Assembly: GCA_007132225.1 (NCBI GenBank) | Contig: SLPB01000025.1 | Location: forward strand, 1 to 47,062 | Reading direction: 5' to 3' | Source of the DNA: Bacteroidales bacterium | GTDB taxonomy: Bacteria; Bacteroidota; Bacteroidia; Bacteroidales; PUMT01 | Length of the DNA: 47,062 bases | Shown here: positions 18,361-35,102 of the stretch, piece by piece | Layout of the letters: every line of letters starts with the position of its first letter | How positions within the stretch are numbered: the first letter of the stretch is position 1 | Made by a program: the position numbers and the translations under genes | Notes under the pieces: generated by a model | What the model saw: only the letters and a program-made list of their open reading frames with translations | What the model was told of the DNA's origin: nothing | Databases searched by the model: none

Positions 18361-18394
18361 CCAGGCTGATGCCATCAGGCTGGTATCAGCCTGG
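18361..18394 (-). terminator. Hairpin overlapping the stop of the GH88-like gene
   Basis: CCAGGCTGAT (18361-18370) pairs with ATCAGCCTGG (18385-18394), and inner pairs extend the stem by about three. It covers the last codons and stop of the minus-strand GH88-like gene. Read on the minus strand it is followed by an AT-rich stretch, so it may terminate the four-gene operon. Confidence 0.5.
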
Positions 18395-19460
18395 TGTGTT
18401 CTTCCCCGAGATTTTCAAAAGCAGCTTCCATCATCAAAAAGAAAGCCTGACCTTCAGTCGACCTGCCGGGATCAGAATAGTCTGGAGATCCGGGAACACC
18501 CATAACATTGCCCAGGTCATCAATTTTTTCATATACTGCTTTACGGATATTTCCGGCCGTTTCAAGATAGTGCTCGTCAAGCCAGCCTGCATTAACACCT
18601 TTAAATATTGTATGGGCCACTCTCATAGCCAGACTGGTTTCCACAAAAGTGGAAGGATCATTTATAGTGTCATGAAACAGAAAATCTTCCCTTATATAAT
18701 TTAAGCATCCGTCCAGGTGTTTTCTGGTATAATCTTTCATCTCTTCTATTTCTGTGGCCATATTTCCCGGAAGGCGTTCAGTAAGCATGGCCATACCATT
18801 GAGAGCATGTGCATTTGCAAGGCCCCAGAGCTTTGGATTGGTGATTTCGTTCAAATCTGCGTTATAACGATAGGCAAACAATGATTCCTCTTCAATCCAC
18901 AGCTGTTCTCTTATGCCCCGGACCTGCTTTACGGCTTCTTCGGGATATCCTGCAAATGCAATAAAGGGAGCTCCCATGAATATTGTGTCTGCCCACAGTT
19001 CAGGTCCGTGATATGAATGATGAATATACCCCTTTTCAGTTCGCGGTGCCTTTTCAAATAGATACTTAATCATCCTGTCTGATGCTTTCTTTAATTCGGG
19101 GTCACCAAGAATTTCGTATGAACGCAAAACAGCTTCCAATGGGGTGGCTGAGTCGTTTATTCCTGCAGCAACACTTATCACTGCCAGTCGCCCGTCATCT
19201 CCCTGTCTGAGTACCGCCTCTTTGGCCATAAGGATCATCATTGTTTCATCGCCTGTTTCAACAAATGCCTGACAGGCGATTCCGTGTTCCCAGTTTTGCT
19301 TTTGTGTTGAAAGCATGACCATCATAACCTTTCTTCTTATGGGAGTATAAAAATCATCGTGATCAATCCCGGTATTACTTTTACAGGACATTGACAAAGA
19401 GGGAAGAAAAACTGCACTGCCAAGAAGGCCTGATTTCAATAGAAAGTCTCTTCTGATCAT
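18375..19460 (-). CDS. GH88/GH105-like unsaturated glycuronyl hydrolase
   Basis: This 361-residue protein matches the six-hairpin (alpha/alpha)6 family that removes delta-4,5-unsaturated uronic acids from oligosaccharides produced by polysaccharide lyases. Family-like segments are QNWEHGIACQAFVE (about 55-68), GPELWADTIFMGAPF with Asp158 in the position of the catalytic Asp of YteR-like enzymes, and STEGQAFFLMM near the end. The leader RRDFLLKSGLLGS is twin-arginine-like and is followed by Cys26, suggesting export or a lipoprotein. It is the last gene of a probable four-gene minus-strand operon, 96 bp after esterase B. That implies uronic-acid-containing substrates for the cluster, although no polysaccharide lyase is in the window. 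Confidence 0.78.
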   Translation of the reverse strand: MIRRDFLLKSGLLGSAVFLPSLSMSCKSNTGIDHDDFYTPIRRKVMMVMLSTQKQNWEHGIACQAFVETGDETMMILMAKEAVLRQGDDGRLAVISVAAGINDSATPLEAVLRSYEILGDPELKKASDRMIKYLFEKAPRTEKGYIHHSYHGPELWADTIFMGAPFIAFAGYPEEAVKQVRGIREQLWIEEESLFAYRYNADLNEITNPKLWGLANAHALNGMAMLTERLPGNMATEIEEMKDYTRKHLDGCLNYIREDFLFHDTINDPSTFVETSLAMRVAHTIFKGVNAGWLDEHYLETAGNIRKAVYEKIDDLGNVMGVPGSPDYSDPGRSTEGQAFFLMMEAAFENLGEEHTRLIPA

Positions 19461-19556: not shown

Positions 19557-21740
19557 TCAATCTTTTATCCACCTGGAAAAAAAGGTGTTCATATCCTCTC
19601 CCGACTCAATTATAAGAGATCGGGAAGCATTATTGTACCTGTAGGCATTTATTATTACCTCCATATCTTTTTCTATTTCTTCGGGGTTGTCAGATTCAGC
19701 CGCTGCATCATGAACGTTTACAAGCATAAGCTTTCTTGGAGCAATGGAGGCTGCCAGGTCAGGCAGGTCGTAGGCTTTAAGTGCCCCCGGCACGGCTCCG
19801 TGTATACTGGCCACATCATAAAACCTGTTCATGACAATGGAGCGGTAGGATGAGTAGGGCTCAATCAGGGCTACCCGTGAAACCGATGGGTTAAAAGCTG
19901 CTGCATGCAGCAGGTCAGGCGATATTTCTCCTTTTGCCAGGGCATAGATTTCATCTGTGTCATCCCTTTCTTCAAGGAGCATGGTAAGTCTAGAAATATC
20001 TCCCGCACGTATTCCTGTAATACTTCTTCCAATAAGCATTGACCCGAACCAAATATTATATGATATACCTTCAATAAAGGCATCACCCCTGAAGACTCCC
20101 GGTCCTGTTTCTCCGATTCCAACCAGATCGGGTGCAAGTACAGTAAAACCTTTATTAACGAACCATTCTGCTTCACCTCCCGGAGATGCCTCTTCGGCTT
20201 TGCCCGAGGGATGGAGATATATCAGTGCTTTGGAGTTAGGCTTGTCGGGTATCATTAAAAGGTAGGGGATAACGTAATCTCCTTCACCCTGAAGGAAATA
20301 TTTCTCGATCATATATCCATCTCTTTGTATGCGACCGGTAAACACGGGTTCTTTGATCTTCTCGGGAGCAATATAGCCGGAGAGTGCTTTTGCCTCACTT
20401 ACTGCAGCGGGAAGATGTGTTTTAAGGTCTTTCCTGGATTCCTCCAGTCCGGCTAAAAGTTTTTCAGAATCCTTGCGGTTAAGACTGAAAACGGTTTCCC
20501 CGTTCAGGGAGGTTGAAATTTGTCCTGTTGAAGTTACCCTTAATTCATCGTCAGAGAGTATCTCAACATCCTGATCACTAGCGTTCCCTGGATGATCAAG
20601 ATGTTTCTGGAAAAATGCATACATGGCCTCCCTGTTTTTTCTGGTTGACTCATGTCCGCCAATATCTTCAACCATACCAAAATTATCCGGTTTGCCGTAG
20701 GCTTTATAAATTACAGAAACTTCCCCTGCGGTTTCCCTGGCCCCCTGGATACTGAAAAAATCATTAGTTGTTGTTATCATCAGTGCCGGTTTTGGTGCCC
20801 GAACCGCAAGCAGGTCGGGATGATCTATTCCATGTTTGATTCCGTTATAGAGGTTTTGTTCTGCGTCCTGTGGACCAATGGACTGGAACAGCCTTGTGAA
20901 ATTTGTGATATATGCTTCGGGTGCAGCTGCATAAATGCGGTCATCTACAGCAGCGATATATGAAGACTGGGTACCGCCGCCGGAGCGGCCGGTGATACCT
21001 ATTCGGTCTGGATCTACCTCAGCTCTTGTAAGAAGATAATCAACAGCTCTTACACCATCCCATATCATATACCTGGCCTGGGAGCTTCCTGTTATAAAAG
21101 CCTGTGCACCGGGGTATGAGTGTTCCCTTGTCGGACCACCGACAACCGATCTGCCTGTTTCAGGATCATAATATTCGAGCCTCTCTCCCTGGCCGACCGG
21201 GTCAAATGCGAAGACGATAAAACCTTTTTTCACAAGGTTGGTAATTTTGTGCTGATAAGTTTTACTCCTGTAGCCTTCACTTGCATGTCCGCTGCAATAA
21301 ATAACGGCGGGCATTCTTGCATTAGCTGTTGTTTCCGGTATATACATTGAAGAGGTAACATAGAAACCTGGTTGCGATTCATAAATTATATGTTCAACCC
21401 TGAACCCGTCTTTTCTTATTGTTCTGGTAATCCTGGCATTTAAGGGGGTCTTTGCAGGGAAGGGACCAACTATATCAATCAACTTCTCTCTTACCCTATT
21501 TTGCCTTGTCTGCAAATCATTTAACAACGCTGTTCCGGAAACCTTCTCCCGGCGTTCTTCAAGTAATTGATAAGCCTGTCCTGAAATATACTTGTAAAGA
21601 GAGTTTTGAGCGTCAGAATGTTTGAGCCAGTAAGTGTTTCCACGCTGGATGACATTAAGGTCGTTCTGGGCACTTATGAGATTGCTGATAAGAAAAAAAG
21701 CAATCAACATTCTGAAACATAATTTTAAATACATAATCAT
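19557..21740 (-). CDS. Two-domain alpha/beta hydrolase (acetylxylan-esterase-like), copy B
   Basis: This 727-residue exported protein (signal peptide about 1-24) contains two alpha/beta-hydrolase domains. The first (about 90-400) has a nucleophile elbow GRSGG with Ser253, a likely acid Asp in TTNDFF and a likely His in GGHES, as in acetyl-xylan esterase/dienelactone-hydrolase-type enzymes. The second (about 480-727) keeps the fold (YLHPSGKAE, APDLVGIGE, LMLVNV), but where the elbow is expected it reads AKGEISPDLLHAAAF without a G-x-S-x-G, so it may be inactive. It is third in the probable operon, 78 bp after the isomerase-like gene. It is a paralog of 23480-25702, with a nearly identical C-terminal half. 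Confidence 0.8.
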   Translation of the reverse strand: MIMYLKLCFRMLIAFFLISNLISAQNDLNVIQRGNTYWLKHSDAQNSLYKYISGQAYQLLEERREKVSGTALLNDLQTRQNRVREKLIDIVGPFPAKTPLNARITRTIRKDGFRVEHIIYESQPGFYVTSSMYIPETTANARMPAVIYCSGHASEGYRSKTYQHKITNLVKKGFIVFAFDPVGQGERLEYYDPETGRSVVGGPTREHSYPGAQAFITGSSQARYMIWDGVRAVDYLLTRAEVDPDRIGITGRSGGGTQSSYIAAVDDRIYAAAPEAYITNFTRLFQSIGPQDAEQNLYNGIKHGIDHPDLLAVRAPKPALMITTTNDFFSIQGARETAGEVSVIYKAYGKPDNFGMVEDIGGHESTRKNREAMYAFFQKHLDHPGNASDQDVEILSDDELRVTSTGQISTSLNGETVFSLNRKDSEKLLAGLEESRKDLKTHLPAAVSEAKALSGYIAPEKIKEPVFTGRIQRDGYMIEKYFLQGEGDYVIPYLLMIPDKPNSKALIYLHPSGKAEEASPGGEAEWFVNKGFTVLAPDLVGIGETGPGVFRGDAFIEGISYNIWFGSMLIGRSITGIRAGDISRLTMLLEERDDTDEIYALAKGEISPDLLHAAAFNPSVSRVALIEPYSSYRSIVMNRFYDVASIHGAVPGALKAYDLPDLAASIAPRKLMLVNVHDAAAESDNPEEIEKDMEVIINAYRYNNASRSLIIESGEDMNTFFSRWIKD
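19634..20553 (-). repeat. Duplicated tract, copy B (C-terminal half of esterase)
   Basis: This stretch is nearly identical to 23556-24476 in the same orientation, in contrast with clearly diverged sequence on both sides. The upper limit coincides with the codons for the DDELRV segment; the lower limit lies about 25 codons before the stop. The pattern suggests recent gene conversion or unequal recombination between the two esterase genes. Confidence 0.75.
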
Positions 21741-21818: not shown

Positions 21819-23369
21819 TTATTTGTCTCTTTCTATAACATTAAGTCCCATTAATCTTCCTGCATCTTTAATTTGCTGTCTTAAGTCACCCAGTGTTGCA
21901 CAGTGATGAATCCCGTACAGGGAGGGGAAATGCTGATCCCTTACTTTTTTTATGTTATCCACTTTGGCAAATATTTTGGTTGTGCACATTACATTATCTA
22001 TATCTTCACCGCCAATATATATGGTACGACCGTTAACTATTTCACCCGTATGCATTCTTATTTCACCAATAAGGCTGTGTATCTCCCAGAAAGTAGCAGT
22101 TTCACCTACAGGCCATTCGGCTGTAATACCTGTTGAAGAACCGGGTTCTTCAGGCAGATCCCTGACAGGGCTTTCTGCATGAGTCCTTATAGTATAAGGG
22201 ATCCTGCGTTCATCACCCCAGGGATTAATCGGAATACCGCAATGAAGAACAATTTCAACTCCATTATCAATATCATACATCTGGTCGCCCAGCATACTTG
22301 GCCTGCCGGTCAGCTTGTAAGCCAAAATCTGGCTCATTAATATATCAGGGTAGTTCTGGCAAACAGCCTGTATTCCCCTGGTTTTAAATCCAAGCTCCAA
22401 ACCTAATCCAGGATTGAACTGATCTTCAATCCTGCCACTTCCGGTAACTGATCTGAGGTGAGTTGAGACTGCATTGCAATTGTATTTTTCCCTTAATTCA
22501 TCAAGAGCAAGATAACCCCTGGCTGATTTTATTATCTCCGATCTGGAAGCTTCTACTTTTTGTGCCCCGTTAATCCATTTATCTGCAATTTCTTCTGCTT
22601 TACCTATGCTTATGTTTTTATAAGTCTCGTAGAATTCCTGTGGTTCTACCCGGATAATTTCAGCACCGAATAATTCCCTGAAATTATTAATATAACGTTC
22701 GTTATGATCTGCGGGATAGGTCTGGTTAAAATCACCATGTTTATAATTTACCTGTCCTATCATTTCATCTTCACTTCGCGGTATCATCAATATCCTGGTT
22801 TCTCCAAGCTCTTTTACAACCTGTACAAGTTTAATCTTATACACAAGATCATTGAACATCGATGCTCTGACGTCCGGAGCACAAAGATTTCTTCTGTCCA
22901 GCTGTGCGGTGAGAATTTTTACATCCTTGTAGTTGGTTCCTCCCTCGAGTATGTTCTTGCCCTCGACTTTTACCTCTCCCGTATTAAAAATGTGATAGTG
23001 ATGACCACTCTGGAATTCCCAGAGATTGTATACAACTATTGTGGGCAATCCGGTAAAGGCCAGCCTGTAGTCACTATCTACCCTTCCTATTATCAGCACT
23101 CCATCATAACTATCCCTGTTACCTGATACCTCATTATATGCATCAGTAATTGTACCTTCGAATTCAATAAAATCTATTCCGATACATGATTTTTGAAGCT
23201 GATCAAGGACTTCATCATGAGTAGTAAAAGTTTCCGGAGCACCACCCGAACCGGTGCAGCCGCAGCCTCCGGAGGTGAAAATAGTAAACAGCCGTGTATT
23301 CGTATTTTGGGACATTGCAAACACGACAGGAAATGCAATTAACAAAATAAATAAGGATGCCTTTTTCAT
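21819..23369 (-). CDS. Exported L-fucose-isomerase-like protein
   Basis: This 516-residue protein resembles the L-fucose/L-arabinose isomerase-like superfamily (COG2407 type). Supporting segments are NPGLGLELGFKTRGIQAVC, then QILAYKLTGRPSMLGDQMY and EIVLHCGIPIN with His376-Cys377-Gly378. Two features are odd. It starts with a clear Sec signal peptide (MKKASLFILLIAFPVVFAMS), whereas sugar isomerases are cytoplasmic. The usual C-E-G-D active-site motif reads Cys337-Gln-Asn-Tyr-Pro-Asp342, so the catalytic Glu is replaced. A Cys/Gly-rich patch (SGGCGCTGSGG, 33-43) follows the leader. It lies between two paralogous esterase genes in one probable operon. Binding or a changed reaction on a sugar is more likely than classical isomerisation; function is unproven. 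Confidence 0.65.
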   Translation of the reverse strand: MKKASLFILLIAFPVVFAMSQNTNTRLFTIFTSGGCGCTGSGGAPETFTTHDEVLDQLQKSCIGIDFIEFEGTITDAYNEVSGNRDSYDGVLIIGRVDSDYRLAFTGLPTIVVYNLWEFQSGHHYHIFNTGEVKVEGKNILEGGTNYKDVKILTAQLDRRNLCAPDVRASMFNDLVYKIKLVQVVKELGETRILMIPRSEDEMIGQVNYKHGDFNQTYPADHNERYINNFRELFGAEIIRVEPQEFYETYKNISIGKAEEIADKWINGAQKVEASRSEIIKSARGYLALDELREKYNCNAVSTHLRSVTGSGRIEDQFNPGLGLELGFKTRGIQAVCQNYPDILMSQILAYKLTGRPSMLGDQMYDIDNGVEIVLHCGIPINPWGDERRIPYTIRTHAESPVRDLPEEPGSSTGITAEWPVGETATFWEIHSLIGEIRMHTGEIVNGRTIYIGGEDIDNVMCTTKIFAKVDNIKKVRDQHFPSLYGIHHCATLGDLRQQIKDAGRLMGLNVIERDK

Positions 23370-23479: not shown

Positions 23480-25702
23480 TTAATCTTCTATCCATCTGTT
23501 AAAAAATACATCAAGGTCAGACCCTGATTCAATAATCAGCGATTCCCATGCGTTTTTGTACCTGTAGGCATTTCTTATTACTTCCATATCCTTTTCTATT
23601 TCTTCGGGGTTGTCAGATTCAGCCGCTGCATCACGAACGTTTACAAGCATCAGTTTCCTTGGAGCAATGGAAGCTGCCAGGTCAGGCAGGTCGTAGGCTT
23701 TAAGTGCCCCTGGCACGGCTCCGTGTATACTGGACGGATCATAAAACCTGTTCATGACAATGGAGCGGTAGGATGAGTAGGGCTCAATCAGGGCTATCCT
23801 TGAAACCAAGGGGTTGAAAGCTGAGGCATGCAGCAGGTCAGGTGATATTTCGCCTTTTGCCAGGGCATAGATTTCGTCTGTGTCATCCCTTTCTTCAAGC
23901 AACATGGTCAGTCTTGAAATATCTCCCGCGCGTATTCCTGTAATACTTCTTCCTATAAGCATTGACCCGAACCAAATATTATATGATATGCCTTCAATAT
24001 AGGCATCGCCTCTGAAAACTCCCGGTCCTGTTTCTCCGATTCCAACCATATCGGGTGCCAGTACAGTAAAACCTTTATTTACGAACCATTCTGCTTCACC
24101 TCCCGGAGATGCCTCTTCGGCTTTGCCCGAGGGATGGAGATATATCAGCGCTTTGGAATCAGACCTCTCGGGTATCATTAAAAGATAGGGGATAACATAA
24201 TCTCCTTCACCCTGAAGGAAATATTTCTCAATAATATATCCATCTCTTTGTATGCGACCGGTAAACACGGGTTCTTTGATCTTCTCGGGAGCAATATAGC
24301 CGGAGAGTGATTTTGCCTCACTTACCGCGGCGGGAAGATGTGTTTTAAGGTCTTTCCTGGATTCCTCCAGCCCGGCTAAAAGTTTTTCAGACTCTTTGCG
24401 GTTAAGACTGAAAACGGTTTCCCCGTTCAGGGAGGTTGATATTTGTCCGGTTGAAGTTACTCTTAATTCATCGTCAACCAGAAATTCCACCTCCTCTTCA
24501 ACAGGACTCCCCGGATGATCAAGGTGTTCCTGAAAAAATGCGTTCATAGCTTCCCTGTTTTTCCGGGTAGTTCCGTGACCTCCCATATCCTCGACCATAC
24601 TAAAATTATAGGGTTTTCCGTAAGCATTATATATTTCAGAAACTTCTCCGGCAGTTTGCCTGGCTCCATGAATGCTGAAAAAGTCTTCAGTTGTGGAAAG
24701 GATCAGGGAGGGCTTTGGCGCGCGTACAGTTAAATAATCTGCATGATCTATTCCCTGCTTAATTCCATTGAACAGGTTTTGCTCGGCGTCCTGGGGCCCT
24801 ATGGTTTGAAATAACCGGGTAAAATTGGTGATATAACATTGGTTTGCAACAGCTTTAATCCTGTCATCAAGTGCAGCAATATATGCAGCCTGGGTTCCTC
24901 CTCCCGAGCATCCGGTTATTCCAATCCGGTCAGGATCAACCTCATTCCTTGAAAGAAGATAGTCTACAGCCCTTACACCATCCCATGCCATGTATCCTGC
25001 CTGGGAGTTTCCTGTAATCAAAGCCTGTGCCCCGGGATAGGAATGCTCCCTGGTGGAACTGCCAACGATTGAACCACCTGTTTCCGGATCATAATATTCA
25101 AGTCTTTCGCCCTGTCCGACCGGGTCAAAGGCAAATACTATAAAACCTTTATTTACAAGGTTAAGTATTAATTTCTGGTAAGTTCCGGTTGGCGCCCTGT
25201 GCGCTATGGAGGTATGTCCGCTGCAGTATAATATTGCCGGTGTTTTATTATGTTCTGTTTTGTCTGGAAGGAATAATGAAGCTGTAACATAGAAATCCGG
25301 CCTGGACTCGAAGATGATATGTTCAATACTGTAGTTATCTTTAGTTATGGTCCTTGTTATTCTGGCGTTCAGTGCCGTTTTTTCAGGAAAAGGGCCAATG
25401 ATCTCCGTCAGCTTCATTTTTAGAAACTGCTGTCTTTCCTGCCAGCCGGTCAGTGTGTTGATTGCCGATATCTCATTTTCACGTTCTTCCAGCAGTTGAT
25501 ATGCCTGATTTGCAATATGCTGATAAAGTGAGTTTTGGGCGTCAGTATGTTTAAGCCAGTTCCCGCCCCTTAAATGAAGCACATCAAGATCGTCCTGGGC
25601 AAAGGCAAAATCAAGGGCGAAACTAAGTAGTAAAATCAGGCTGATTATTATTTTAGGAAGGAGTTTTATTGTATTTGGGTTTCTCCGGGGATAGTTTGTC
25701 AT
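23480..25702 (-). CDS. Two-domain alpha/beta hydrolase (acetylxylan-esterase-like), copy A
   Basis: This paralog of 19557-21740 has the same layout: an exported N-terminal alpha/beta hydrolase with elbow GCSGG (GITGCSGGGTQ), acid candidate Asp in TTEDFF and His in GGHGT, and a C-terminal hydrolase-like domain lacking a G-x-S-x-G elbow. I chose the ATG at 25702 (MTNYPRRN), which places a short basic region before the hydrophobic leader; an ATG nine codons upstream at 25729 is possible. Near the active site it differs from copy B (VANQCYITNF versus AAPEAYITNF), which may change specificity. It is the first gene of the probable operon, 110 bp before the isomerase-like gene, and diverges from the 812-residue putative glycosidase. 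Confidence 0.8.
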   Translation of the reverse strand: MTNYPRRNPNTIKLLPKIIISLILLLSFALDFAFAQDDLDVLHLRGGNWLKHTDAQNSLYQHIANQAYQLLEERENEISAINTLTGWQERQQFLKMKLTEIIGPFPEKTALNARITRTITKDNYSIEHIIFESRPDFYVTASLFLPDKTEHNKTPAILYCSGHTSIAHRAPTGTYQKLILNLVNKGFIVFAFDPVGQGERLEYYDPETGGSIVGSSTREHSYPGAQALITGNSQAGYMAWDGVRAVDYLLSRNEVDPDRIGITGCSGGGTQAAYIAALDDRIKAVANQCYITNFTRLFQTIGPQDAEQNLFNGIKQGIDHADYLTVRAPKPSLILSTTEDFFSIHGARQTAGEVSEIYNAYGKPYNFSMVEDMGGHGTTRKNREAMNAFFQEHLDHPGSPVEEEVEFLVDDELRVTSTGQISTSLNGETVFSLNRKESEKLLAGLEESRKDLKTHLPAAVSEAKSLSGYIAPEKIKEPVFTGRIQRDGYIIEKYFLQGEGDYVIPYLLMIPERSDSKALIYLHPSGKAEEASPGGEAEWFVNKGFTVLAPDMVGIGETGPGVFRGDAYIEGISYNIWFGSMLIGRSITGIRAGDISRLTMLLEERDDTDEIYALAKGEISPDLLHASAFNPLVSRIALIEPYSSYRSIVMNRFYDPSSIHGAVPGALKAYDLPDLAASIAPRKLMLVNVRDAAAESDNPEEIEKDMEVIRNAYRYKNAWESLIIESGSDLDVFFNRWIED
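23556..24476 (-). repeat. Duplicated tract, copy A (C-terminal half of esterase)
   Basis: This is the partner of 19634-20553, in direct orientation and about 3.9 kb apart. The two tracts differ at few positions by eye, mostly scattered, while the N-terminal coding halves are visibly more divergent. Recombination between them would delete the isomerase-like gene and yield one hybrid esterase. Confidence 0.75.
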
Positions 25703-25729
25703 GTTGTAATATCTTAAAAAACAAATCAT

Positions 25730-26073: not shown

Positions 26074-28512
26074 ATGATCAGTAAGCCAGGAAAACGAATA
26101 TTTTCAGTGTTTATCACTCTCTTGTTATTGACTTCATCTGTATCTGTGGCTTTTTCACAAATGCTTGATTTTTCGGGTTCAAAAATAGTCTGTTTTGAAA
26201 GCAGTGACCGGCATGTATTAAAATCCCTGGAAGTTTTGCAGGAAGAAATTGACAAAAGGAGCAATATTCTTTTACCTGTAAGCAGAAAATTGCCTTCGTC
26301 CGGTCATCCTGTTATTATGGTCGGGATTGAAGGGCAAATCCAGGAATTTCCCGAAAATTTTCAAAAAGTCATTGCAGGTTTATCTCCAATAGAAAGTGAG
26401 GGGTATAAAATTGTAGTTCTGAAAGAGTTTAATACAGCATTAATCGTTGGTTATGATGCACGTGGTGTATTATACGGAATAGGAAAAATGCTCCGCAAAA
26501 TGGAGATTCGTCCCGGACAGGTTCATTTGCCGGCCGATTTAAAAGTGGTTTCATCTCCGCAGTATCCAATCAGGGGGCACCAGCTGGGATATCGACCCAA
26601 AACCAATTCATATGATGCCTGGTCGCCTGAACAATTCGATAGCTATATACGTGATCTGGCCATTTTCGGAGCTAACAGCATTGAAATAGTTCCCCCGCGA
26701 ACCGATGATCTTTTCAGCAATATCCTTATGCCTCTTCCGGCAATTGAAATGATCGCCGAACAATCAAGAATATGTGATTCTTACGGAATGGATGTCTGGA
26801 TGTGGTATCCTAATATGGGGAGTGACTATTCACATCCCGATTCAATAGAATTTGAACTTGAGGAGCGCCATGAAGTTTTTAATGCAGTTCAGCGTCTTGA
26901 TGCTCTTTTTGTACCGGGTGGTGATCCGGGCTACCTGGAGCCTGATGTGCTGTTTGGCTGGCTCCATAAAGTAGCGGAAGTTCTGCATCAATATCATCCT
27001 GATGCAAAAATATGGGTTTCTCCACAGGTTTTCAGGCCATCGCAAAAATGGTTTGATGATTTTTACAGTCATGTTAACAAAGAATATCCCTGGTTTGGGG
27101 GAGTAGTTTTTGGGCCATGGATTAAAGCGCCTGTCTCCGAAATTCGTGATATCATTAATCCTGGCATACCTATTCGCCGTTACCCTGATATCACCCATAG
27201 TCTCAGCAGTCAATATCCGATACCTGAATGGGATCTGGCCTATGCCATTACCCTTGGTCGGGAATGTATAAATCCCCGGCCAAATGATCAGAAAATAATT
27301 CATAATGCCCTGGATGAATATGCTCAGGGAAGTATTAGTTATTCTGAAGGAACAAATGATGATGTCAATAAATTCATCTGGAGCGATCAGGACTGGGAAG
27401 CCGGGGCTTCTGTTATTGAAACACTGCGGGATTATGCCCGGTTTTTCATTGGCCCCGATTATACAGAGTCAGTTGCTCAGGGATTAATGGCACAGGAGAG
27501 GAATGTTACGGGCCCGCTGCTTATAAACAAGGGCGTGATGAACACCCTTTATCAGTGGCAGGACATGGAAAAAAATGCTTCTGATGAGGTTCTTAGCAAC
27601 TTTCGGTTTCAAATGGGGTTGCTCAGGGCATACTATGATGCTTACATTTACCAGCGATTGATATATGAAACGGAACTGGAAAGGAAATCTATTGAGATAT
27701 TATCGGGAGCAGCAAATGAAGGTTCAAAGGCCTCCATTGAAAAAGCAAGGGAAACTTTGTCCCGGGCATGGGATAATCCGGTGAGGCCCGAACTTAGAAA
27801 ACGGTGTTACGATCTGGCTGACTCGTTGTTTAGAAGTATAGGTGCGCAGCTTACAGTTGAAAAACATCATGCCGCAAGGGGACGCGGTAACTTCATTGAC
27901 AATATAGATTTTCCCCTAAACAATTCACCATGGTTGCTTGAGCAATTTTCAGCAATAGAAGAACTTGCTGATGAAACTCAGCGCCTGCGTGAAATTGAGA
28001 AAGTGGTAAAACGAGATAATCCCGGGCCAGGAGGCTTTTACGATAATTTTGGGTCGCCACTTTCTATGGACCGGGTTAAATCTGATGTCAGTATTGAAGA
28101 AGATCCGGGAAGCCTTATTTCACCGAGGGTCAGCTTTGGCGCGGGGATTTACGGTACAGAGTGGGTTCACGTAATAAGACCGGTAGCCCTGGACGGACGG
28201 GCTGCCCCAATCTCATGGATGAACCAGATAAACACATTGTACGATCAGCCCCTGGAAATTGTTTATGAAAACCTGGATCCTCAAGGTTCATACACTATAA
28301 GAGTTTCGTATACCGGCCGCTTTCGCTCAAGAATGAAATTATATGCCAACGATATTGTGGTACATGATTTTATTGAAACCGGCACCCTGCCATTTCATGA
28401 ATTTCAGGTGCCTTCCGAAGCACTATCTACCGGCAAAGTCGTTTTTAAATGGACCTGCGGTGAATGGGAACGTGGTTCACAGGTTTCGGAAATATGGCTG
28501 ATAAAAAACTGA
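26074..28512 (+). CDS. Putative secreted glycoside hydrolase, family not recognised
   Basis: This 812-residue protein has a signal peptide (about 1-28). Residues about 30-165 resemble the small alpha/beta domain preceding the barrel in GH20, GH67 and GH84-type enzymes (YKIVVLKEFNTALIVGYDA, then GVLYGIGKMLRKM). Residues about 168-470 look like a TIM-barrel: YPIRGHQLGYRP, GANSIEIVPPRTDD, YGMDVWMWYPNMG, DALFVPGGDPG, AKIWVSPQVF and GSISYSEGTNDDVNKFIW. Acidic residues at strand ends are candidate catalytic residues but I cannot assign them. A helical region follows, and the last about 150 residues resemble a beta-sandwich carbohydrate-binding module (SYTIRVSYTGRFRSRMKLYANDIVVHDF). It diverges from the esterase/isomerase/GH88 operon, suggesting a shared substrate. 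Confidence 0.6.
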   Translation: MISKPGKRIFSVFITLLLLTSSVSVAFSQMLDFSGSKIVCFESSDRHVLKSLEVLQEEIDKRSNILLPVSRKLPSSGHPVIMVGIEGQIQEFPENFQKVIAGLSPIESEGYKIVVLKEFNTALIVGYDARGVLYGIGKMLRKMEIRPGQVHLPADLKVVSSPQYPIRGHQLGYRPKTNSYDAWSPEQFDSYIRDLAIFGANSIEIVPPRTDDLFSNILMPLPAIEMIAEQSRICDSYGMDVWMWYPNMGSDYSHPDSIEFELEERHEVFNAVQRLDALFVPGGDPGYLEPDVLFGWLHKVAEVLHQYHPDAKIWVSPQVFRPSQKWFDDFYSHVNKEYPWFGGVVFGPWIKAPVSEIRDIINPGIPIRRYPDITHSLSSQYPIPEWDLAYAITLGRECINPRPNDQKIIHNALDEYAQGSISYSEGTNDDVNKFIWSDQDWEAGASVIETLRDYARFFIGPDYTESVAQGLMAQERNVTGPLLINKGVMNTLYQWQDMEKNASDEVLSNFRFQMGLLRAYYDAYIYQRLIYETELERKSIEILSGAANEGSKASIEKARETLSRAWDNPVRPELRKRCYDLADSLFRSIGAQLTVEKHHAARGRGNFIDNIDFPLNNSPWLLEQFSAIEELADETQRLREIEKVVKRDNPGPGGFYDNFGSPLSMDRVKSDVSIEEDPGSLISPRVSFGAGIYGTEWVHVIRPVALDGRAAPISWMNQINTLYDQPLEIVYENLDPQGSYTIRVSYTGRFRSRMKLYANDIVVHDFIETGTLPFHEFQVPSEALSTGKVVFKWTCGEWERGSQVSEIWLIKN

Positions 28513-32141: not shown

Positions 32142-35102
32142 TTACTGTTTGGAAAAGTTATGCAACCGCTGTGCCAGCAGAGAAACTGATCCAAACCGGC
32201 TAAGTTTTAATCCAACTGCTTTGCCACCTGAGTGAATCTCCACGAACTCTTTAACAGGAGAGATTCCGAAACGACGGTAAAAGGCTATACGAATGAACTG
32301 CTTAATATCTTCAGGATCAATTTTTTGAGTATCAATATGAACCTGAAAGTAATCGCCCTGGCCTGCAGCATTTACGCGCACTGCTACGCAGTCTTCTCCA
32401 AAAGCCCTTTTAAGCATTGACCCGGCAAGATCTATAAGTGCAAGTCCCCTGAAAAAGTTTGATCCTTCAAGTTGGTTAAATTCAGACGCCATATTATTTG
32501 AAAGTGAATCATTATCCAGTCCTTTGTTAAAGTTGAATGGTGTTGCTCCAAAATTATCCATCCATAGATTCATGAGTTCGGGTCCTTTAATATTTTTTTC
32601 CCATTCAAATTCTTTTTCCATTTCCTCACGGGAAGGGAGGTTTTCATATGGTATGTAAAAGCTGCAATCGCCAAGCTGGGATAAAGTTACTGATTCTATC
32701 CAATGGTCAGGGTTGTGGATGAGAAAAAAGTTTTTTGCTACTTCCCCGAAAAGATATGCAAGTATTGCCCTGAGGGGCACACCTTCCTCCTTAACTACCA
32801 GGCCAGGGGATACGGTTCTTTTCAGGATTGGATCTCTCCAGCCTTCAAAAAGCAGTTTGATTGTAGCATCTGTTTTATGACCGGCATTTCCTCTGTCAAG
32901 TTTAGTATACTCCATTAACTGTTCAATGTACCATTCCCGTTTTGCGGTCACCTCTTGCATTAATTCTTCCTTTTTAATCAGGATTGGTGTTTTAAGCAAT
33001 ACTGAACAAATCCATTTTTTGTTGTCGTTACTTAGCAGACCATCAGCAACAAGATCTTCTTCAATTAACTTAAAGAAATCGGTTTCCAGGGGTAATTGCA
33101 ACAAAATGGCTGAAATTTCAGCTGCTTTTCCGGTCATTTTGCGAAATTCCATTGTAGTGAGAGGTCCGGAATTCTCCAGGTTTCCATAAGCTCCGCATGA
33201 CCAGCGCCATGCATCACGATCCCGCTCAACACTATAGGGAAATATGATCTGTATCCTGTCATGGGGTATTGGATAGGATCCTATGATACGATAGTTGTCT
33301 TTTGGATTAGAAGAAATCAAAGTTCCTTTTCCTGCTATCCCCTTTTGTTCGGTAGCCTGATCCAATGATCCTGCCCTGACACCGGTACCATATTCTGCCT
33401 GGCATGCCAGATGCACCAGAAGATCCGGGGGTATGCCAATGTTGAAAAGTGAGTTAATTGCATTTTTTGTTGCTACTGTCACTGCCGATGAGCTTGAAAA
33501 ACCTCCCTGAGGAATATTGCCGGTTGATACCATTCTTAAACCACGGAAATTTTTTTTCCCCAGGTGTTCCTCCACCTTTATTCCCAGGTTTCCTGTGCGT
33601 AAAGTACGAAGGGATGCTATTGAATTGCCAACAAGCGCAAAAGGTCTTCTCAGGTTGCTTGAAGCCCACAGGGAAGGAGGGGGCATGGGTAATCCGCCGT
33701 CTCGTCTAACTTCCAGTTCTTTTTCACTGAAATAGCCCAGTGACAGGAGTAAGCCTTCACTCATACTGGTGCCAAATTTTTCATATTCGTAAATGTCTGA
33801 TATCTCTTCACCGGGATACATCATACTATTATCAGCCGGCACAAAGTTTATGCTTTCACGGTACCGGGGATTCATCGGCAACAGATGTATCCTGCCATCA
33901 TCTGCTTCCTGCAATATCACCACAATTTGCTCTTCCCCCGAAACATCACCTGCTCCTATGGGCATTTGCCAGGCAGGCCCATAAAACCTTACAACATCAG
34001 GGTGCATGAAAGCAATTCGCAGCCGTCCCCCGGAAATACCAATCCCGATAGCACGATCAGGATCAAACCCGAGCTTTTCATTCTGAATCATTTCTGTCAG
34101 ATCATCCAATTGCCTCGCTATTGATGCAATTTGTCCTGCCGGTCTGTTTTCAATTATAGTTCCTGCAACCTCCTCCACTTCTATTTCATCCGGAACCATC
34201 AATCCCCTGTTGGAGGCAAGAATTCCTTCAAGCTGTGCCAGGTCAATGGGCTGAGTTACATCAGAACAGAGAAGATCGTACTCAGGAAGATTAACCCTTG
34301 TGGTTATGGTTCTCACTTCTCCTCCTTCCTTGCTGATTAATTCAATGATATCAGTAAGATAAAACTGGTTTTGTGCATTTATGTTTGTCAGGTCCTGCAG
34401 ATACCGGTGTAAGGTCACTGCCCGGACTGCATAGAGCGGGCAGTTCCCTTCAGTCATATTTATCAGGGCTTGCCTGGTCATTTCATCCTTTATTTCACCT
34501 ATCTCCCTTTCTTCAATAATGCGCATCACCCTGCCCTTTTCATCTCTTAATATGCGTCCTTTCCCCCTGTTTTTAGGTGGTTCATAGATTGCAGTCAGGA
34601 ATGTGATATCTGCTTCACGGGAATCAAAAAAGTGGGTTTTCCAGAGATTCCTGAATACTGAGGATGGTACAACCCTGTCACCCATTGTAATAATCAGCAA
34701 TGGATTGTTTTCCAGTATTCCGGGAACACTTAATGATTCAAATGCTGCAAATGCAGTTCCGCCGGTTGGGTTATCAGATAATACATATATGTTATCACTT
34801 CCCAGGGCAGTTGACACTTCATTGTGACGGTACCCAACAACACATATTGATGGTGAGGGGGTGAATCTGTGAAAAGCATCGATAGAATGCCGGGCCAGTG
34901 GAGTCCCGTTAACTGACTGAATGCATTTGGGTTCTGTGCCAAACCTTGTGCCTTTTCCGGCTACAAGATTTATCAGGACCGGTGAATCACTATTTATGCC
35001 GTTATAAAAAGCAAGGCTTTCAGGATTGATAAGTTTACCTCGGTCAAGCTTGGCAGTGTTTTTAAGAAGATGCCCGTTTGCCGGCATATCCGGGTGGTTC
35101 AT
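32142..35102 (-). CDS. Bifunctional sugar nucleotidyltransferase/GHMP kinase fusion
   Basis: This 986-residue cytoplasmic protein has two enzyme modules. Residues about 40-300 form a GlmU/RmlA-like nucleotidyltransferase with the nucleotide-binding loop AGKGTRFG (48-55), Lys59 after Pro58 and a metal-ligand candidate Asp142 (TMGDR). Residues about 355-986 form a GHMP-superfamily kinase with the phosphate loop PQGGFSSSSA (531-540), a GVRAGSLDQATE segment like the galactokinase substrate region, and a C-terminal GHMP-type domain. Together they could phosphorylate a sugar at C1 and convert it to an NDP-sugar, a salvage pathway analogous to Bacteroides Fkp (L-fucose). The order is the same as in Fkp, but the motifs differ: the N-terminus is GlmU-like and the kinase loop lacks Fkp's GLGTSS form. 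The sugar is unknown. Confidence 0.78.
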   Translation of the reverse strand: MNHPDMPANGHLLKNTAKLDRGKLINPESLAFYNGINSDSPVLINLVAGKGTRFGTEPKCIQSVNGTPLARHSIDAFHRFTPSPSICVVGYRHNEVSTALGSDNIYVLSDNPTGGTAFAAFESLSVPGILENNPLLIITMGDRVVPSSVFRNLWKTHFFDSREADITFLTAIYEPPKNRGKGRILRDEKGRVMRIIEEREIGEIKDEMTRQALINMTEGNCPLYAVRAVTLHRYLQDLTNINAQNQFYLTDIIELISKEGGEVRTITTRVNLPEYDLLCSDVTQPIDLAQLEGILASNRGLMVPDEIEVEEVAGTIIENRPAGQIASIARQLDDLTEMIQNEKLGFDPDRAIGIGISGGRLRIAFMHPDVVRFYGPAWQMPIGAGDVSGEEQIVVILQEADDGRIHLLPMNPRYRESINFVPADNSMMYPGEEISDIYEYEKFGTSMSEGLLLSLGYFSEKELEVRRDGGLPMPPPSLWASSNLRRPFALVGNSIASLRTLRTGNLGIKVEEHLGKKNFRGLRMVSTGNIPQGGFSSSSAVTVATKNAINSLFNIGIPPDLLVHLACQAEYGTGVRAGSLDQATEQKGIAGKGTLISSNPKDNYRIIGSYPIPHDRIQIIFPYSVERDRDAWRWSCGAYGNLENSGPLTTMEFRKMTGKAAEISAILLQLPLETDFFKLIEEDLVADGLLSNDNKKWICSVLLKTPILIKKEELMQEVTAKREWYIEQLMEYTKLDRGNAGHKTDATIKLLFEGWRDPILKRTVSPGLVVKEEGVPLRAILAYLFGEVAKNFFLIHNPDHWIESVTLSQLGDCSFYIPYENLPSREEMEKEFEWEKNIKGPELMNLWMDNFGATPFNFNKGLDNDSLSNNMASEFNQLEGSNFFRGLALIDLAGSMLKRAFGEDCVAVRVNAAGQGDYFQVHIDTQKIDPEDIKQFIRIAFYRRFGISPVKEFVEIHSGGKAVGLKLSRFGSVSLLAQRLHNFSKQ

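Follow-up and report, generated by a model that had tools for sequence, protein, structure and literature searches.

The window, the whole stretch of 47,062 nucleotides analyzed here, carries on its minus strand an open reading frame that runs from an ATG at 23369 to a stop ending at 21819 and encodes 516 residues. Its product (21819..23369, minus strand) is assigned below to the L-arabinose isomerase superfamily (AraA/COG2407, the name COG2407 being our assumption and also that of the initial annotation), with Gln338 and Tyr340 replacing the motif Glu and Asp and with a predicted Sec-type leader. The minus-strand translation bears out the residues that had been read at two sites: residues 337-342 are C337-Q338-N339-Y340-P341-D342 (22344..22361, minus strand), a rewritten CE-x-D motif, and residues 376-378 are H376-C377-G378. 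The N-terminus of the protein is MKKASLFILLIAFPVVFAMSQ. GCGCTGSGG, near the N-terminus (residues 35-43; 23241..23267, minus strand), is specific to the clade: all 10 orthologs have it, and none of the 31 other rows in the family set does. A DNA pattern encoding CGCTGSGG has a single occurrence in the genome. Promoter-like sites numbered 21 against 20.4 in shuffled sequences, and terminator-like sites 12 against 7.3 (standard deviation 2.9).

The gene lies in a run of four co-directional genes on the minus strand, with gaps of 110, 78 and 96 bp. EstA (23480..25729), 110 bp upstream, is an α/β-hydrolase (PF12715/AXE1) with a GCSGG sequence. EstB (19557..21740), 78 bp downstream, belongs to the same family and has GRSGG. 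The last gene, 96 bp past EstB, encodes a GH88/GH105-like protein (18375..19460) with a Tat-type leader (MIRRDFLLKSG). All three neighbors have leader-like N-termini. EstB and EstA share 78% identity over 729 residues and flank the gene on both sides, as if a local duplication had placed a copy on either side of it. By sequence, the best solved relative of EstA is 6goc (E 4.1e-10), which we take to be BT1017. This entry code occurs in the available text of a paper on BT1017, a pectin methylesterase (PMC7939467). In the window, no transporter or sensor family was found among the annotated genes directly beside the gene. Two further genes were observed. The first (26074-28512), divergent from the four-gene run, encodes an 812-residue protein with a leader-like N-terminus, a sub-threshold match to the GH67 N-terminal domain only and no PDB match; the second (32142-35102, minus strand) encodes a protein of 986 residues in which an N-terminal part resembling NTP-transferases is joined to a part resembling GHMP kinases.

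The neighborhood is not fixed across the orthologs. Of the 10 loci, four (window, G010, G002 and G007) have a GH88-like gene downstream of the ortholog, and three have an EstA/B-like gene beside it (window, G010 and G007, where it is cut by the contig end). Neither kind of gene was found in the sequence surrounding the G012, G009, L016 and L017 copies. The L016 copy has as neighbors a sulfatase and a DUF1080-type 3-keto-disaccharide hydrolase domain, the L017 copy is followed 6 bp on by a Gfo/Idh/MocA gene, and the G006 copy has a GH42/DUF4832-type gene upstream and a contig end 203 bp downstream. The L018 locus was unusable for this comparison. This context points to glycans being broken down outside the cytoplasm, perhaps ones rich in uronic acids.

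Homology to the arabinose isomerase superfamily

Searched directly, the window protein gave no usable Pfam, NCBIfam or PDB match, and no Fucose_iso Pfam domain was found in it. A weak match to a T6SS phospholipase domain of Pfam, which at 13.3 bits lay under the cut-off of 27 (E 0.052), was dropped. The protein's own search did reach eight distant proteins with the CE-x-D motif. Compared with these eight by hhalign, the ortholog profile aligned over 298 columns (about residues 167-515) with a probability of 99.9 and an E value of 3e-36; compared with A7, an alignment of 28 relatives from which L014 and L059 were left out, it gave a probability of 99.9 and an E value of 3.8e-31. With these matches, the family placement proposed in the initial annotation stands.

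The relatives in turn lead to known enzymes. Their profile matches AraA structures (best E 2.4e-7; 96.7 with hhalign), and it matches FucI structures solely over the stretch upstream of the motif (best E 2.4e-4). One relative, L010, scores above the Pfam AraA_central cut-off (36.0 against 24). The NCBIfam model for sulfoquinovose isomerase, NF048012, is matched by 22 of the 28 relatives at E ≤0.01, with a score far under the cut-off in one case shown (53.7 against 700 bits). The ortholog profile alone has no significant match to AraA or FucI (hhalign probabilities of 1.1 and 0.3) and matched no relevant PDB chain; 0 of 10 orthologs match NF048012 at E values up to 1, and no NCBIfam isomerase model was matched. 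The tie to known enzymes is therefore stepwise. At the level of sequence profiles, these results establish homology to the AraA/COG2407 superfamily over the central and C-terminal regions of the protein. AF2 models, each built on a 4-row alignment, have a mean pLDDT of 38.1 at full length and 36.3 for residues 165-516.

Distribution and selection

Orthologs are present in six genus mates among the 60 genomes nearest to that of the window (its own included), with 63-67% identity, and within the genus in 7 of 13 genomes (again including its own). In an order-wide sample of 393 genomes, at least four had a match at E 1e-30, each belonging to the genus and one being the window's own; in a phylum-wide sample of 395, its own genome alone was among the matches listed at E 1e-12. 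Scoring in both samples covered at most three candidates from each genome, so that rarer copies may be missed. A pattern scan of contigs from 84,980 species, which can detect only close relatives, turned up three loci: two in Bacteroidales MAGs and one in a record labeled Deltaproteobacteria. No relatives were found among the viral contigs scanned. The nine other orthologs are 62-75% identical to the window protein.

The Deltaproteobacteria-labeled copy (L018:946-2496) matches the orthologs to about residue 445 and continues in the same frame as a Cys-rich sequence unlike them. Judged from its sequence, it is a chimeric gene or lies on a chimeric contig.

In a tree of 39 rows, from which L018 and L059 were left out, the ortholog clade has a support of 100/100 and a stem length of 1.65, and its sister group is without resolution. 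The open reading frame is present at 10 of 10 loci. The dN/dS ratio is 0.08-0.115 in 10 pairs with dS below 1, all among five genus mates; in pairs with the window gene, dS is saturated (1.4-4.3), at ratios of 0.05-0.15. Codons 337-342 vary only synonymously among the 10 orthologs. These values indicate purifying selection on the ortholog clade, and together with the synonymous variation they argue that the unusual motif is being preserved and does not stem from an error in sequencing.

The rewritten active site

For a comparison by column, we aligned the 10 orthologs, 29 distinct relatives and E. coli AraA (40 rows). The L059 row, a truncated copy of L037, was excluded from the counts; the gene that L059 was meant to represent, viewed separately as a thirtieth relative, has CESD and a Tat-type leader. 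L024 was also excluded, its match being confined to the Tat-leader end, with no CE-x-D motif. Column 338 is Gln in 10 of 10 orthologs, whereas all 29 relatives, like AraA (Glu306), have Glu there, which argues that the substitution did not arise by chance. Column 340 is Tyr in all 10 orthologs and Asp in all 29 relatives and AraA (Asp308). No Glu was found at the motif in any of the 10 orthologs.

The initial annotation had claimed the loss of a catalytic Glu, as is found here, and had taken Asp342 as the motif Asp. The latter would imply a two-residue insertion in the motif, which we rejected: both hhalign and MAFFT align orthologs and relatives there without a gap. It is therefore Tyr340 that occupies the place of the motif Asp, and two acids have been lost.

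His376 (22242..22244, minus strand), the equivalent of AraA His350 by alignment through the relatives, is His in 40 of 40 rows. The Cys that follows it, previously thought to be kept along with it as part of His-Cys-Gly, is not: among the orthologs residue 377 is Cys in five and Ser in five. His488 (21906..21908, minus strand), the C-terminal His, corresponds to AraA His450 by hhalign or to the adjoining His449 by MAFFT and is present in 29 of 29 relatives, AraA and 9 of 10 orthologs, the exception being L018, chimeric in this region. By alignment, then, H376 and H488 fill the columns of the active-site histidines H350 and H450 of AraA. All 10 orthologs have His397 and Glu399, which are shared by 26 and 27, respectively, of the 29 relatives. 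Asp366 is invariant in the orthologs, as is Asp362, a position that is Asn in 23 and Asp in 6 of the 29 relatives. The clade also has invariant polar residues of its own: H304, Q338, N339, Y340 and D342.

According to the accessible text of two papers, proton transfer is carried out by Glu306 and Glu333 in AraA (PMC11172353) and by Glu337 and Asp361 in FucI, where Glu337, Asp361 and His528 are also the Mn ligands (PMC6894278). With both motif acids replaced, the classical mechanism cannot run unchanged in the window protein. The column of AraA Glu333 holds Gly or Ala in the orthologs, the next column being Asp362. It holds no acid in the 29 relatives either, and the mechanism of the relatives themselves is therefore uncertain.

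Leader and export

Residues 1-20 of the window protein (23310..23369, minus strand) form a predicted Sec-type signal peptide, likely cut before Gln21, as judged by hydropathy and an AxA-like pattern. In the sequence MKKASLFILLIAFPVVFAMS-Q21, two Lys are followed by a hydrophobic core and a small-x-small pattern preceding Gln21. The core and the small-x-small pattern recur at equal position in 10 of 10 orthologs, in line with the Sec leader noted in the initial annotation; the ten keep both the leader pattern and the substitution, the check that the annotation had proposed for homologs. The protein thus appears to be exported through the Sec pathway.

The initial annotation also held that an isomerase of this kind would be unexpected outside the cytoplasm. 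This view is weakened by the relatives, since Tat-type (twin-arginine) leaders are present, by pattern, in 13 of the 29 aligned relatives and absent from 16, and those 13, of the same order, retain CE-x-D. Export in itself is therefore not unusual. Two such relatives, L031:8114-9691 and L032:4039-5649, both with CESD, are encoded in the window's own genome, and the former adjoins a gene for a xylose-isomerase-like TIM barrel. The peculiarity of the window protein, as read from the alignments, is the combination of a Sec-type leader with a rewritten site. Tat substrates cross the membrane folded, often with a cofactor, and Sec substrates cross unfolded. The Sec leader may be linked to a loss of metal loading in the cytoplasm. 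No paper on an exported member of the superfamily appeared among titles and abstract openings in the open-access literature, and one may still exist.

Discussion

We propose that the window protein descends from the AraA/COG2407 superfamily, is exported by the Sec pathway and no longer carries out the classical ketol isomerization, which depends on Glu and a metal. The mature protein would work in the periplasm, where it would keep the old sugar pocket with a changed chemistry and act on, or tightly bind, a sugar or sugar acid released by the neighboring α/β-hydrolases and the GH88/GH105-like protein. Taken as a whole, this picture of a repurposed sugar-handling protein supplied by its neighbors has, in our estimation, an even chance of being right. 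Its parts differ in strength. The replacement of both motif acids very probably reflects a changed function and makes the classical Glu-based reaction unlikely, even if a carboxylate from elsewhere may reach into the place of the Glu. The substrate, taken from the neighbor genes, is a guess.

The earlier suggestion of either a binding protein or a new reaction stands. Of these, we lean somewhat toward a changed enzymatic reaction over pure binding, since next to the residues it has retained the clade carries invariant polar ones of its own, unlike a site in decay. A more specific form of this idea would be a periplasmic enzyme class derived from ketol isomerases by the change of Glu/Asp to Gln/Tyr and the addition of an N-terminal GCGCTGSGG loop, acting on a modified sugar or a sugar acid through a reaction not described so far. 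We put this forward tentatively, as a possibility that falls short of an even prospect.

Binding without catalysis has to be weighed against it. A catalytically dead protein could use the isomerase pocket only to hold a sugar in the periplasm and serve as a carrier, a sensor or an inhibitor. Such a role would agree with the export leader and with the neutralization of both acids throughout the orthologs, and Gln and Tyr frequently hydrogen-bond sugars. However, H376, H488, D362, H397 and E399 have been kept, arguably beyond the needs of a binder, and the annotated genes directly adjoining include no transporter or sensor family. We consider a pseudoenzyme a possible but rather unlikely explanation.

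It is more doubtful still that the protein remains a ketol isomerase, with Gln338 binding the metal and D362, D366, H376 and others moving protons. The candidate residues are in place, with Asp362 and Asp366 invariant and His376 and His488 (9 of 10) retained in the orthologs, but the lost Glu is Glu in every relative aligned and in AraA, and it is a proton-transfer residue of both AraA and FucI in the available text of the mechanistic papers (PMC11172353; PMC6894278). An unrelated protein with a coincidental motif, or a drifting pseudogene, would fit the lack of direct Pfam, NCBIfam and PDB matches and of a confident AF2 fold on 4-row alignments, yet is most improbable given the 298-column profile alignment, the open frame at every locus and the low dN/dS where measurable.

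If the repurposed, Sec-exported protein that we favor is real, it would represent a clear-cut switch within a thoroughly studied superfamily of isomerases, in which both motif acids were replaced in one clade and then frozen, and the switched protein was sent to the periplasm. It would also point to sugar chemistry taking place beyond the cytoplasm in Bacteroidales that are known mainly from MAGs, among which the relatives with an export leader are sizeable in number. Exchanging Gln/Tyr and Glu/Asp in either direction would be a direct test of the role of those acids.

Comparison with known systems places the protein at some distance from each. E. coli AraA (PDB 4f2d/2ajt) belongs to the same superfamily through the CE-x-D relatives and has His at both histidine columns; it differs in having Glu306 and Asp308 where the window protein has Gln338 and Tyr340, and the direct profile match is insignificant. 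AraA works in the cytoplasm. FucI is a more distant relation, seen through the relatives' profile match upstream of the motif, and the ortholog profile does not match it significantly. SftI (NF048012) and leaderless COG2407-like proteins resemble the window protein by way of the A7 relatives, which are homologous to it; unlike SftI, it lacks CE-x-D and has a Sec-type leader, and none of its orthologs match the model. The Tat-leader relatives such as L031 and L032 are of the same superfamily and probably exported likewise, but they have a twin-arginine leader, an intact CE-x-D motif and no GCGCTGSGG, in contrast to the Sec-type leader of the window protein.
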